From Brasilonema sp. CT11 (lineage in GTDB: Bacteria; Cyanobacteriota; Cyanobacteriia; Cyanobacteriales; Nostocaceae), in contig NZ_JABXYX010000086.1 of NCBI RefSeq assembly GCF_017982655.1, forward strand, positions 1 through 32,750: a stretch of DNA of 32,750 bases, in the 5' to 3' direction. The position numbers and the translations under genes are program-made. Under the pieces are notes generated by a model that did no database searches, was not told where the DNA came from, and saw nothing but the letters and a program-made list of their open reading frames with translations. Shown piece after piece: positions 9,476 to 24,447 of the stretch. Position 1 is the first letter of the stretch, and each line of letters starts with the position of its first letter.

Positions 9476-10195
9476 ATGAATGACATTAAAGTATGCTCCG
9501 AAAAATTTCAACTTTCTGGTTGCGTTATATACATCCTCGTTTGGCTCCTTTAATTGCCACAATTGGTATTGTTGGACTTATTAGCTGTCTGCTCATCCTT
9601 TTTGTTTTAGCAAACTTAGCAGAAGAGGTTTTAGAGCGAGAAGCTTTTGCATTTGATACGACTTTTCTGTTATGGCTACATCAATTTGCTAATCCAACTC
9701 TAGATAATTTGATGCTGTTTATTACAAATATTGGTAATCCTAGGACAGTGGTTACGGTTGCAGCAGTTACTGTCTTGTTACTTTGGTGGCGACGTTACCG
9801 AGAAGAAGCAAAAGTTTTTGTACTTGCTTGCTTGGGAGCATTTATTTTAAATACAGAACTGAAGTTATTTTTTTCTAAACCTCGTCCTGAACTTTGGCAT
9901 CAGTTGATTTCTGAAAAATCTTTTAGTTTTCCTAGTGGTCATGCACTAGGTTCTATGGTTCTATATGGTTTTATCGCTTACTTGCTAGCAATTCACTATC
10001 CTAAGTTATCCGGAGTAATTTACAGTTTAGCAATTATTTTAATCGCAGCCATTGGCATCAGTCGCTTATATTTGGGAGTACATTGGCCCACAGATATTAT
10101 TGCAGGTTATGGAGTCGGTTTCTTGTGGTTGATGATATGTATCACGATGTTAAAACTGCAAAGATTGAGGCAGTTGAAATGATGCTTTAGAAATT
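9476..10195 (+). repeat. 720-bp direct repeat, copy 1 (PAP2 unit)
   Basis: Matches 12983-13702 at a constant offset of 3507 with no indels. It starts at ATGAATGACATTAAA ahead of the PAP2 gene and ends in GATGCTTTAGAAATT just after its stop. Two blocks, 9592-9804 and 9841-9980, are identical to the other copy. Confidence 0.93.
9493..10182 (+). CDS. PAP2-family membrane phosphatase (copy 1)
   Basis: Type 2 phosphatidate phosphatase/undecaprenyl-diphosphatase-like enzyme, 229 residues, with several membrane helices. All three PAP2 signatures are intact: KLFFSKPRP with Lys124, Arg131 and Pro132; PSGH at 147-150; and SRLYLGVHWPTD with Arg191, His197 and Asp201. These make up the His-based phosphatase site, which acts on lipid phosphates at the outer membrane face. 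ATG 9493 is the start in the conserved repeat unit. The second copy at 13000 differs at ten residues. Its place after COG4705 genes suggests co-function, but the lipid substrate cannot be told from sequence. Confidence 0.93.
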   Translation: MLRKISTFWLRYIHPRLAPLIATIGIVGLISCLLILFVLANLAEEVLEREAFAFDTTFLLWLHQFANPTLDNLMLFITNIGNPRTVVTVAAVTVLLLWWRRYREEAKVFVLACLGAFILNTELKLFFSKPRPELWHQLISEKSFSFPSGHALGSMVLYGFIAYLLAIHYPKLSGVIYSLAIILIAAIGISRLYLGVHWPTDIIAGYGVGFLWLMICITMLKLQRLRQLK

Positions 10196-10409: not shown

Positions 10410-10535
10410 CTAGAACACCGATTCAGTATTCACCAATTGTGATAAAAAACCCGGTTTCTTCTCATTAGTTGTCGAAATATCAGTCTTTCCAGTAACCGAA
10501 ACCGGGTTTTTGGCATTAATGAATCGGTGTTCTAG
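10410..10535. mobile_element. 126-bp nested-palindrome element
   Basis: The outer inverted repeat CTAGAACACCGATTCA (10410-10425) pairs perfectly with 10520-10535. Nested inside, AAAAACCCGGTTTC (10445-10458) pairs with GAAACCGGGTTTTT (10498-10511). The design looks like a small MITE that also carries a bidirectional terminator. Its right end supplies the last codons and stop of the KAP NTPase gene (ARTPIH). Confidence 0.65.
10445..10511. terminator. Bidirectional terminator-like hairpin
   Basis: A 14-base perfect stem with a 39-base loop. GC-rich ACCCGGT cores are flanked by an A run on one side and a T run on the other, so it could stop transcription from both the PAP2 side and the KAP gene. 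Confidence 0.5.
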
Positions 10536-12552
10536 CTTTTTCAGAACATTCTGCGTTTTGTGCCTGCTTTCTTTTAGCAACAATTTCTTTCAGTTCTTTA
10601 AGATGTTGTCTGCTAATTAACCCATCATCTTGAAGGTGAAATATATCTGAGGTGTACTCACTTTGTTGCTCATTCAAATTTTCTAATTCTTTTGTAATTA
10701 TTGACAATGCTTTTCCTTGACTCATTGAGGTTTTTAACACTTCAAACCGTGTAGCTTCATCAAGACGACATAATAACCGTAAGATGATACGACGAATTCT
10801 AATTTCATTCCCAAAATCAAAAATTGTGCTATGAGAATCATCTTCAGAAAGTAACAGTTCTTCTCCCACATCAAATAAAGCTTCCACAATTGAGGTAATG
10901 CTAGAGGTAGGAATTTCTTTTATTGCGCCATCTTCAAGTTTTTCTAAAAATGCCCGAACTTGAGTTGTACCATCAGGACGTATTTGCTCAGACAGTTCTA
11001 TAAGTTTTTCTCCAAATGCCTTGGCATCATAGGCGCAAGCAAGAATGCCTTGGATCTGAGTCTTAGATAAATCAGCTTCTGGTAAAGTTAAACGGAAGTA
11101 GATAGGAAATATTTCTGGACAGCATACACGGTGTTGCTCTCGCCACATTAATTTTTGTTCCTTATTACATCTGTTTCCCCAAACACCTTCTAATTTAGGA
11201 AAAAGAATTCTGAGCAGAGTTTGAACAGGTTGCTTATCTTGCTCTCGCAACTGAGCCAGCCAAGAATTATGAAAATTTTTCAATTGATCTAAGGAATAAT
11301 TGATTGGCTCTATAAAAGCATTTTTGTTTTTGCGAATTATGTTATGTACCATTGGATGAAAAACCCGTAATGATTCTAAAGCAATAAAATCTACTGGGTT
11401 CACTTCGCCTTGCACTACGGGATATGTCATTGTTAAGGTGTCAGTTAGATGAACAATGTCGCGGAGGTTAGTAATGAAGTGGTCTATTCCTTGAAAGTAA
11501 ACATTGCTCCAATAAATTTGATCAAATAGTTGAGTCACTTCTGTGGCTGGATTTTCCACATCAGCTTCCTCCAAGTCAGGAACTTCTTGAGGTTCTGATT
11601 GTTCCAAGTCGGCGCTGAGATCTCTCTTAGCAGACGGCTGATTCGAGTTAGGGCGATGCTCCTGCAGGGAGCCATCCTTTGAGCGATCGCCGTCCTTTGA
11701 GCGATCGCCGCCCTTTGAGCGATCGCCGCTCTTTGAGCGATCGCCGTCCTTTGAGCGATCGCCATCTTTTGGTGTGCCAATCAGAACACTATTAAGTTTT
11801 TCAAAAAATAGCCTGCGAAGTGAAGTTTTATCTGGAGAAGGTAACTCAAAAGGAACTTGAATAGTTTTCTCCAAATATGCTTCTGGTGATATCTCCTGAG
11901 TTTCGCAAAGTGCTTTGCTAACAACTTCTTTATCAAAAACCAGAAGATAGACAACGTTACGAAAATTTGGAATTGCTTTAAAAATGCGAAATAGCTGCTT
12001 AATATCTTCTATGGGAAGCCTATCAATATCATCAATTGCAACGACTATTCGCTGCTCCTGCTGCACCACTATATTTTCGAGTTCTTCTTTTAACTCGGAA
12101 GCTTCCTTTGATTGCTCGTCAAATAATGTTGCTACTGCCATGCCAGCTTGAGCGTAAGGGAGGGGAACTTGAGAAACAACTTTAGCAACATCGGCTATTC
12201 GCTCTTTCAAGCCTTTGGGCATATATTTTCCAGAGGTTAAAACGCTGTGTAATTGGTCAAAAAAGCGCCTTGTAATGTCTTGGTTTCCAGTAAACAACCA
12301 AGCATTAAAATGAACGACGATTGGTTGCTCCTCATCAGGCTTGTGTTTAAGACAATGAACTACAAAGTTCAACAGTGTCGATTTGCCGGAACCCCACGAA
12401 CCGTACACTGCAATCACAAACCCTTCACTCAGGCTCATTTTGCAAATACTATCTGCCAAATGCTTGGCGAAGGGCGCGTATCCTAGTCGGTCTTTTTCTG
12501 GTTCGATCAAGAAGTCATCTTGCCGATGGTTATGAGTTTCAGTTTGTGCCAT
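10516..12552 (-). CDS. KAP-family P-loop NTPase
   Basis: A 678-residue protein with a KAP NTPase domain at the N-terminus. Walker A is GSWGSGKST at 51-59, preceded by FVIAVY. HFNAWLFTGN follows at 81-90, and Walker B is RIVVAIDDIDRLP with Asp174-Asp175. A YLLVFDKEVVSKAL strand-helix follows. Many KAP proteins carry membrane helices inside the domain; here that position (about 122-145) is only weakly hydrophobic, so it may be soluble. Residues 262-294 are a tandem DGDRSK-type hexapeptide repeat encoded by HIP1 sites. An acidic Pro/Gln/Glu-rich linker then runs to about 340 before a helical C-terminal region without recognised domains. KAP NTPases have been linked to membrane-associated and defence-island roles, but no partner gene is adjacent. 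It is flanked by palindromic repeats, and its last residues derive from one. Confidence 0.88.
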   Translation of the reverse strand: MAQTETHNHRQDDFLIEPEKDRLGYAPFAKHLADSICKMSLSEGFVIAVYGSWGSGKSTLLNFVVHCLKHKPDEEQPIVVHFNAWLFTGNQDITRRFFDQLHSVLTSGKYMPKGLKERIADVAKVVSQVPLPYAQAGMAVATLFDEQSKEASELKEELENIVVQQEQRIVVAIDDIDRLPIEDIKQLFRIFKAIPNFRNVVYLLVFDKEVVSKALCETQEISPEAYLEKTIQVPFELPSPDKTSLRRLFFEKLNSVLIGTPKDGDRSKDGDRSKSGDRSKGGDRSKDGDRSKDGSLQEHRPNSNQPSAKRDLSADLEQSEPQEVPDLEEADVENPATEVTQLFDQIYWSNVYFQGIDHFITNLRDIVHLTDTLTMTYPVVQGEVNPVDFIALESLRVFHPMVHNIIRKNKNAFIEPINYSLDQLKNFHNSWLAQLREQDKQPVQTLLRILFPKLEGVWGNRCNKEQKLMWREQHRVCCPEIFPIYFRLTLPEADLSKTQIQGILACAYDAKAFGEKLIELSEQIRPDGTTQVRAFLEKLEDGAIKEIPTSSITSIVEALFDVGEELLLSEDDSHSTIFDFGNEIRIRRIILRLLCRLDEATRFEVLKTSMSQGKALSIITKELENLNEQQSEYTSDIFHLQDDGLISRQHLKELKEIVAKRKQAQNAECSEKARTPIH
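11671..11772. repeat. 18-bp tandem array of HIP1 sites inside the KAP gene
   Basis: Five 18-base units of the form GCCGTCCTTTGAGCGATC plus a partial sixth place GCGATCGC at 11683, 11701, 11719, 11737 and 11755. The units differ at one to three bases, all next to the DG/SG/GG codon. The unit length is a multiple of three, so the frame is kept and the KAP protein gains repeated DGDRSK hexapeptides. Confidence 0.97.
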
Positions 12553-12990: not shown

Positions 12991-13702
12991 CATTAAAATA
13001 TGCTCCGACAAATTTCTCATTTCTGGTTGCGTCATATACATCCTCGTTTAGCTCCCTTAATTGCCACAACTGGTATTGTTGGACTTATAAGTTGTCTACT
13101 CATCCTTTTTGTTTTAGCAAACTTAGCAGAAGAGGTTTTAGAGCGAGAAGCTTTTGCATTTGATACGACTTTTCTGTTATGGCTACATCAATTTGCTAAT
13201 CCAACTCTAGATAATTTGATGCTGTTTATTACAAATATTGGTAATCCTAGGACAGTGGTTACGGTTGCAGCAGTTACTGTCTTGTTACTTTGGTGGCGAC
13301 GTTACCGAGAACAAGCGAAAGTTTTTGTGCTTGCTTGCTTGGGAGCTTTTATTTTAAATACAGAACTGAAGTTATTTTTTTCTAAACCTCGTCCTGAACT
13401 TTGGCATCAGTTGATTTCTGAAAAATCTTTTAGTTTTCCTAGTGGTCATGCACTAGGTTCTATGGTTCTATATGGTTTTATCGCTTATTTGCTAGCAATT
13501 CACTATCCTAAGTTATCCAGAGTAATTTACAGTTTAGTAGTTACTTTAATCGCAGCCATTGGCATCAGTCGCTTATATTTGGGAGTACATTGGCCTACAG
13601 ATATTATTGCAGGTTATGGAGTCGGTTTCTTGTGGTTGATGACATGTATCACGATGTTAAAACTGCAAAGATTGAGGCAGTTGAAATGATGCTTTAGAAA
13701 TT
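12983..13702 (+). repeat. 720-bp direct repeat, copy 2 (PAP2 unit)
   Basis: Second copy of 9476-10195 at offset 3507, without gaps. Differences cluster at the two ends and near the codons for residues 105 and 174-182, leaving long identical blocks between. Confidence 0.93.
13000..13689 (+). CDS. PAP2-family membrane phosphatase (copy 2)
   Basis: A 229-residue duplicate of the gene at 9493. It differs at residues 4, 7, 12, 24, 105, 174, 180, 181, 182 and 215, none of which touch the catalytic KPRP, PSGH or SR-H-D motifs, so both copies should be active. The substitutions lie in the N-terminal arm, a loop and transmembrane faces. It follows the COG4705 stump. Retention of two intact copies may reflect dosage, different regulation, or a recent conversion event. 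Confidence 0.92.
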   Translation: MLRQISHFWLRHIHPRLAPLIATTGIVGLISCLLILFVLANLAEEVLEREAFAFDTTFLLWLHQFANPTLDNLMLFITNIGNPRTVVTVAAVTVLLLWWRRYREQAKVFVLACLGAFILNTELKLFFSKPRPELWHQLISEKSFSFPSGHALGSMVLYGFIAYLLAIHYPKLSRVIYSLVVTLIAAIGISRLYLGVHWPTDIIAGYGVGFLWLMTCITMLKLQRLRQLK

Positions 13703-23154: not shown

Positions 23155-23334
23155 GAAAAATTATCACGAGTCGTTTCTGTGCATTTCCTGCAAAAGTAAA
23201 TTTTTTTAAAATGAAACCACAGATACGCACAAGATAAATTATCTAAACTATCTGCCTGCATTAGTGGTTCCAAATAGCTTTAAACAGGATTTTTGCAAAG
23301 TATCAAAATAATAGTCCAAAGCACAAAAGTTACT

Positions 23335-24447
23335 GTGAACAGTGAATTATCCTCTTTGCAAGTTCAAGATATTGGAGAGCAAGGTCTTTTAGAAAGATTG
23401 CAGCGCTTTTGTCCTCCAGAAATTATCGGAGATGATGCGGCTGTGCTTTCTACTGAACCAGGACAATCTTTGGTAGTCACAACTGATGTGTTGGTTGATG
23501 GTGTCCATTTCAGTGAACTGACTACTTCTGGTGAAGATGCTGGTTGGCGCGCCGTTGCTGCTAACTTATCAGATATAGCAGCAATGGGTGCAACTCCCTT
23601 AGGAATTACTGTCGGACTAGGACTCCCTGGTGATGTTGCTGTCAGTTGGGTAGAGCAATTATACCAGGGAATGACCCAATGCCTGCAAAAGTACAATACG
23701 TCAATTGTTGGTGGTGATATTGTGCGATCGCCCACAACCACAATAGCCATTTCCGCTTTCGGTCAAGTTAACCCCTCACGTGTTATTCGCCGTAACCAAG
23801 CTAAGGTGGGAGATGCCATAGTTGTCACAGGTGTTCACGGGGGTAGTGCTGCTGGCTTACAATTGCTTCTGCATTCTGAGTTAGGGCAAAGTCTGAGTGA
23901 GAGCGATAGCGTTTGCGTAGCGCCAAAGTCTGCCGGGGGGATACTCCCCCCGGCGAGCTTTGCCCCTTCGGGGCTAGCGCTGCTGCTTTCAGCAGATCGC
24001 ACTGTCTTAATTCACGCACACCAAAGACCCAAACCCCGATTAGATGTCTTACCAGTTCTATGGGAAATTCTAAACTCTCATACCCCACACTCTGTAGCTG
24101 GTATGGACAGTAGCGACGGCTTGGCAGATGCAGTGGTACAAATTTGCCGCGCCAGTGGTGTTGGTGCGGTCATTGAATGCACTCAAATTCCTTTACCAAC
24201 ACAATTCAATCATTGGCTGACACAAGAACAAGCCCTGGAATATGCCTTATACGGTGGCGAAGACTTTGAGCTAGTATTGTGCTTGCCAAAAGAGCAAGCA
24301 TATGGTTTAGTGCAACAGCTTGGTGAGGGCGCGGCTATTGTGGGAAAAATCACAGATGGATCAACAGTCATTTTGCATGACCAAACAAAAGAATACCCCG
24401 ACCAAGTTCTCAATCTTGATCGAGGGTTTCAACATTTTCATCGTTAG
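23335..24447 (+). CDS. thiL: Thiamine-monophosphate kinase with a repeat-encoded insert
   Basis: ATP-dependent kinase making thiamine diphosphate from thiamine monophosphate, the last cofactor step. Motifs: IIGDDAAVL near residue 30, TTDVLVDGVHFSE, NLSDIAAMGATPL, IVGGDIVRS, AHQRPKPRLD, GMDSSDGLADA and YALYGGEDFEL. GTG 23335 gives the normal start (NSELSSLQVQDIGEQGL); an in-frame TTG at 23293 adds an unlikely tail. At 370 residues it is about 30 too long. Residues 192-221 come from a 90-base palindromic repeat inserted at a HIP1 site, between SESD and RTVL. The insert lies in a surface-loop-like position and keeps the frame, so the enzyme may still work. Confidence 0.93.
   Translation: MNSELSSLQVQDIGEQGLLERLQRFCPPEIIGDDAAVLSTEPGQSLVVTTDVLVDGVHFSELTTSGEDAGWRAVAANLSDIAAMGATPLGITVGLGLPGDVAVSWVEQLYQGMTQCLQKYNTSIVGGDIVRSPTTTIAISAFGQVNPSRVIRRNQAKVGDAIVVTGVHGGSAAGLQLLLHSELGQSLSESDSVCVAPKSAGGILPPASFAPSGLALLLSADRTVLIHAHQRPKPRLDVLPVLWEILNSHTPHSVAGMDSSDGLADAVVQICRASGVGAVIECTQIPLPTQFNHWLTQEQALEYALYGGEDFELVLCLPKEQAYGLVQQLGEGAAIVGKITDGSTVILHDQTKEYPDQVLNLDRGFQHFHR
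23908..23997. mobile_element. 90-bp palindromic repeat inserted in thiL
   Basis: A GC-rich block between GAGCGAT and CGCACTG; joining the flanks restores a HIP1 octamer GCGATCGC. GAT occurs on both sides (23905-23907 and 23995-23997), consistent with a 3-base target duplication. Inside, a 17-base near-perfect inverted repeat (23924-23940 with 23946-23962) contains GCCGGGGGG and CCCCCCGGC around a 5-base loop, followed by the small hairpin GCCCCTTCGGGGC. The length is exactly 30 codons with no stop in the coding frame. Confidence 0.85.

Follow-up and report, generated by a model that had tools for sequence, protein, structure and literature searches.

A tiny two-hairpin repeat in a HIP1 site of a vitamin-biosynthesis gene, with other small repeats apparently nested inside it and the protein still readable

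Introduction

Cyanobacterial SDRs are reportedly very small repeats with paired stems, some of them nested, as described for Nostoc punctiforme by Elhai et al. in 2008. In the same work, SDR5 units are said to span 21–27 nt and to reside exclusively in HIP1, and a paired structure with compensatory changes is said to be named for SDR4–6. The function of HIP1 and the movement of the smallest known mobile repeats are open questions, and both bear on the locus described here. SDR5 is stated to enter HIP1 exactly between its third and fourth bases (PMC4390886, citing Elhai 2008).

Two other systems offer likenesses. Rickettsia palindromic elements are described, in passages of two sources, as small palindromic repeats lying in frame in functionally unrelated genes (PMC10969869, PMC3733652). 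The inserts considered here share that behavior, which is the only basis of the comparison, and differ in that the Rickettsia elements are about 150 bp long and are described in those passages with neither a HIP1-like target nor nesting. REP/REPIN repeats, associated with RAYT transposases, are likewise short dispersed hairpin repeats without a gene of their own, probably moved in trans (PMC3116915, PMC3733652). The same sources give GTAG or CGTC as the tags of the large REP families, whereas the mark here is the octamer target.

Given SDR5 and the Rickettsia elements, HIP1 targeting and in-frame tolerance are known kinds of behavior. Nothing closer than these three systems was found in openly licensed papers, and none was found there to describe HIP1-resident repeats in genes whose orthologous sites are empty, filled, or nested; Elhai 2008 could hold examples. 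As far as the literature was searched, such states in genes are what is new. With the same gene site empty, filled, or nested in close genomes, target choice, nesting order, precise loss, and selection on frame become directly testable, and the states show small repeats lengthening conserved proteins.

Organization of the insert in thiL

The window, meaning the whole 32,750-nt stretch of DNA that was analyzed, is contig C39 of the 8.79-Mb genome of Brasilonema sp. CT11, which is assembled in 411 contigs. The closest named records of its ThiL are from Scytonema tolypothrichoides and Brasilonema. An initial annotation of the window had placed a 90-bp palindromic repeat in frame inside a HIP1 octamer of thiL. 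The split is as proposed: 90 nt (23908–23997) separate GCGAT from CGC (23998–24000), the frame is kept without a stop, and the flanks joined without the 90 nt give GCGATCGC and the protein reading SESD-RTVL, as in the insert-free relatives compared. The strong hairpin proposed for 23924–23962 is borne out as well, as the 99-nt stretch that carries the insert has an RNA folding energy of −58.2 kcal/mol, whereas its shuffles average −38.97 and none of 200 is as good. What did not survive is the unity of the element, because the unit is composite, its components are also found apart from one another in this genome, and shorter states occupy the same site in relatives.

Three nested layers form the insert (Table 1). 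The outer two-hairpin element, 27 nt with AT included, sits in HIP1; the first hairpin of that element holds a 25-nt core; and the core in turn holds a 39-nt hairpin, giving 27 − 1 + 25 + 39 = 90. The core at thiL, TTTGCGTAGCGC plus CCCCTTCGGGGCT, is identical to the unbroken core of copy L009, which is without the 39-nt hairpin. The pattern of the right arm has 68 rows in the CT11 genome with overlapping rows counted, and two of these are at the thiL insert.

Table 1. Features of thiL and its insert in the window
Feature	Coordinates	Strand	Evidence
thiL, thiamine-monophosphate kinase, with the frame open across the insert	23293..24447	+	ORF; PF00586 and PF02769; PDB ThiL matches
Left half of split HIP1, GCGAT	23903..23907	+	Sequence
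Outer element, left arm AGCG	23908..23911	+	Same site in L032 holds the 27-nt form AGCG-A-AGCGCTGCTGCTTTCAGCAG
Core module, left part TTTGCGTAGCGC	23912..23923	+	Identical unbroken core in L009
Innermost 39-nt hairpin module CAAAGTCTGCCGGGGGG...CTTTG	23924..23962	+	Not in L009; alone in L019 and L024; folds as hairpin
Core module, right part CCCCTTCGGGGCT	23963..23975	+	Comparison with L009
Outer element, right arm AGCGCTGCTGCTTTCAGCAG, hairpin 2	23976..23995	+	Pattern GCTGC-N-GCAGATCGC
Right half of split HIP1, ATCGC; its AT repeats the left-half AT	23996..24000	+	Sequence; empty GCGATCGC sites in relatives

HIP1 as the target of the outer element

Searched for without its flanks, the outer element has 128 copies in 79 genomes including CT11, 125 of them in this genus. 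Exact GCGAT...ATCGC flanks border 106 copies and inexact ones the remaining 22. Within the CT11 genome, 20 of 25 copies are exact; among the other five, four are one base off and one (L228) is two off. Six of the 25 share one flank at contig ends, so the copies amount to 20 distinct sites, 15 of them exact. Each of these six (L227, L235, L240, L243, L245, and L250) lies about 20 nt or less from a contig end, which suggests that they may be part of a longer repeat that breaks the assembly.

A short relative was searched for in its 19-nt form, also without flanks, in ten family genomes picked for having matches to a wider pattern, and 23 of its 28 copies are exact HIP1 splits. Reversed-pattern controls for this search and for the outer-element searches with and without flanks gave no matches. 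The wider pattern (AGCNNNGCT plus a free stretch in a split HIP1) matches in 88 of 217 family genomes, and its reversed control gave two matches overall. The proposal that the element targets HIP1 holds for both forms. The initial annotation had also offered the GATC core of HIP1 as the target. Most copies lie in exact HIP1; two of the five inexact short-relative copies (L360 and L364, from two other family genomes) lie in TTGAT...ATCA, which is GATC and not HIP1, and hint that GATC may be the minimal target.

The bounding GAT is present on both sides of the thiL insert as first noted, but it fails as a duplication rule. Element ends vary by copy type (CAG, GGC, or GCT), with related copies reading ...GGC-ATCGC or ...GCT-ATCGC; thus AT, the HIP1 center, and not GAT is doubled across all copy types. 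The arrangement GCGAT-X-ATCGC could come from duplication of a 2-nt target, AT, or from an element that brings its own AT and goes in between bases 3 and 4.

With one AT counted, the outer element (25–27 nt) and the short relative (21 nt) fit the size range reportedly given for SDR5. The exclusive residence in HIP1 that is said to mark SDR5 does not carry over to the letter, as 22 of 128 and 5 of 28 copies are inexact. The exact copies (106 and 23) sit between bases 3 and 4 of HIP1, the position that PMC4390886 gives for SDR5. The likeness is one of description and not of published letters, and the present elements may be set apart from SDR5 by nesting inside a HIP1 element within genes, with orthologous intermediates. 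An approximate candidate SDR5 pattern matched none of the 79 genomes, a result that says nothing on true SDR5; the element is not equated with SDR5 by sequence. The 35-nt element had no match in PLSDB by blastn at E 1e-5.

Folding and covariation

In single-sequence folding, the 59-nt and 99-nt forms outdo their shuffles (z −2.39 and −5.56). This is not so for the 35-nt and 29-nt elements by themselves (z −0.39 and −1.00), whose best folds differ from the two-hairpin form. Pairing across copies was scored for hairpin 2 of the short relative, using 28 distinct sequences among the wider-pattern matches listed and stem columns picked by eye on the same sequences. On that footing, 78 of 84 cells are paired (28, 26, and 24 of 28 per pair), with 0 of 10,000 shuffles as good; one of the three pairs shows G-C, A-T, and T-A, and the other two show little variation. 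Several stem types occur among copies of the 27-nt element.

Empty, filled, and nested states in relatives

The thiL site differs in length among seven genomes of the genus: the insert is 90 nt in G000 (the CT11 genome), 75 nt in G001, 51 nt in G004, and 27 nt in G003, and it is absent (0 nt) from G002, G005, and G006. In the 75-nt form, which matches S. tolypothrichoides L031, a 24-nt repeat takes the place of the 39-nt hairpin of CT11. The 51-nt form has the same build with a different 25-nt core, and the 27-nt form matches B. bromeliae L032. The G005 site was scored empty by script; its ThiL shows no difference in the tree from that of L034, where HIP1 was seen directly. The ThiL alignment covers 37 of 54 ThiL loci plus the window, with L053 left out owing to a stop in its stretch. 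Beyond the genus, some empty sites read GCGATCGC (L036, L037, L045, L092, and L093), though not all, and most of the more distant relatives compared have neither HIP1 nor an insert at this position. Among the relatives in this comparison, only L085, L086, L031, and L032 carry an insert.

Eight further sites with an ORF across the insertion were read, six of them strict and two weaker (L011 and L231), with thiL treated apart and L159 left out. No insert is present at site L011 in G004, G005, and G006; G002 has 27 nt there, and G000, G001, and G003 have 75 nt. At L009, where two orthologues were read, G003 has 27 nt and G000 has 51 nt. Site L017, in a gene named by eye as an anthranilate/aminobenzoate synthase-like fusion, carries 51 nt in G000; its HIP1 is intact in G004 and imperfect in G002 and G005. 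The filled state is found in two of seven genomes at L188, two of seven at L226, and one of seven at L237; sites L205 and L231 have no clear empty orthologue among those read. Empty orthologues often read GCGATCGC, with the exceptions GCGATAGC, GCGAGCGC, and GCTATAGC. Imperfect empty orthologues occur at sites L226, L188, and L017, and none of the five empty genus sites at L226 has a perfect HIP1. Such imperfect sites point either to decay of the site or to a HIP1 that is not strictly needed. Hairpin loops of the filled copies vary by genome (AAA/TTT at L231, TCC/TGC at L226). At L231 (copies L231 and L339), it is the hairpin-2 loop that reads AAA in G000 and TTT in G004, as if inverted.

In an unrooted tree of thiL joined to the flanks of five other sites, G000 pairs with G004 (95) and G002 adjoins them; on the other side are G001 with G003 (93) and G005 with G006 (100). 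Outgroups in the ThiL tree place the root with G005 and G006. A tree of ThiL by itself sets the empty G002 beside G000 at a weak support of 0.66, and the joint tree, with G000 and G004 together at 95, is relied on for that reason. On the joint tree, thiL requires either two gains or a single gain followed by precise loss in G002, and L011 requires either three gains or a single gain followed by precise loss in G004. Presence at these two sites does not simply follow the species tree, and recombination between species could explain both patterns.

The core and the innermost hairpin elsewhere

The left part of the core, searched for as an exact pattern, occurs 64 times in the CT11 genome. By a rough sorting, 25 occurrences lie between two recognized HIP1 halves (both orientations), one has the right half only, and 38 have neither. 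The innermost hairpin also stands alone in L019 and L024. HIP1 targeting is thus seen in the outer layer only. In L127, L132, L150, L156, and L174, the core lies inside another hairpin-like host, CCCTG-core-CGAAGGG (TGAAGGG in L132), so the core modules have several host elements.

Reading frame and protein

Frame-keeping was examined in the CT11 genome. Strict ORF sites were those with at least 200 nt open on each side, the flanks being joined before the ORF search. Six of 44 inserts were dropped (three at contig ends with less than 20 nt of flank and three overlapping composites), and the composite L023 was retained. Of the 38 inserts left, 8 have weak ORFs and stood outside the main comparison. 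All eight inserts at strict ORF sites are stop-free multiples of three, compared with 12 multiples of three among 22 sites without an ORF (one-sided Fisher p 0.02). Of the eight weak-ORF inserts, five have lengths divisible by three, including L022, which contains a stop; adding L231, L152, and L011 from this class, picked post hoc, brings the count to 11 of 11 multiples of three. Modules are often multiples of three outside genes too, with 25-, 26-, 49-, and 52-nt forms also existing, and module length itself may help to keep the frame. The simplest account of frame-keeping is purifying selection, the insertions otherwise coming in several lengths.

The gene is under constraint, with a dN/dS of 0.16–0.36 for thiL in ten pairs from five genomes. 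An AlphaFold2 model built with 38 sequences has a mean pLDDT of 85.8 and a pTM of 0.83; pLDDT falls below 50 at residues 205–229 and 1–10, and the insert comprises residues 206–235. The model shows most of the insert as a predicted disordered loop on an intact ThiL fold. Being a stop-free multiple of three, the insert can be carried by ThiL as a disordered surface loop, and it is probably without function there. The early suggestion that the element is tolerated as a protein insert agrees with the open frame, the constraint on thiL, and the predicted loop.

Origin of the insert

The thiL insert is very probably a stack of very small mobile repeats, one nested in another and SDR-like in the cyanobacterial sense, with an outer element targeted to HIP1. 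A two-hairpin element of 25–27 nt, one AT included, would enter the HIP1 center and yield GCGAT-X-ATCGC, a step supported by the existence of empty and filled orthologues. A 25-nt core would then replace a single loop base of the first hairpin, for a net gain of 24 nt, and would in turn be entered by the 39-nt hairpin in CT11 or by the 24-nt repeat in G001. The states of these two later steps are seen directly, and their order is the presumed part. An enzyme supplied in trans might open HIP1, perhaps through methylated GATC, and copy the hairpin as DNA or RNA. A broader scheme is tentative and rather doubtful. In it HIP1, perhaps via GATC methylation, would be a genome-wide docking site and the element it receives a second docking site for modules; these being mostly multiples of three, peptide loops of housekeeping proteins would be built and pruned, with precise exit restoring HIP1.

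A single 90-bp palindromic transposable element that entered HIP1 in one piece and duplicated GAT would account for a clean 90-nt insertion with GAT on each side, yet it is hardly credible when the same outer arms occupy the same site in 27-, 51-, and 75-nt versions, the modules occur apart, and other copies lack the G ahead of ATCGC. If the insert acted in thiL as a regulatory RNA or in the manner of an intein or intron, and not as a passive protein loop, the very stable RNA hairpin would fit; the window contains no Rfam family at the gathering threshold, however, and variants of 0–90 nt among close relatives, together with related inserts in unrelated genes and at ORF-less sites, make this reading very improbable. 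The insert might instead be ancestral in thiL and lost in relatives, HIP1 being the scar of precise excision and not the target. Precise loss is indeed as short an account as repeated gain, or shorter, at two sites where HIP1 is intact (G002 thiL and G004 L011), but an empty HIP1 also stands in the outgroups G005, G006, and G011 and in more distant Scytonema and Nostocales, and HIP1 is abundant without any element. Ancestry of this kind is accordingly improbable, and loss as a general rule is unlikely, though precise loss may happen now and then.

HIP1 and repeats elsewhere in the window

Intact HIP1 occurs 21 times in the window, against 0.13 expected. Five intact copies at an exact 18-bp spacing (11683–11762) lie in a tandem coding repeat of SKDGDR-like type, which belongs to a minus-strand ORF (10516–12552). 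On either side of that ORF are two ORFs of 229 aa each (9493–10182 and 13000–13689), which by eye are nearly identical and PAP2-phosphatase-like, and which are probably the product of a recent duplication.
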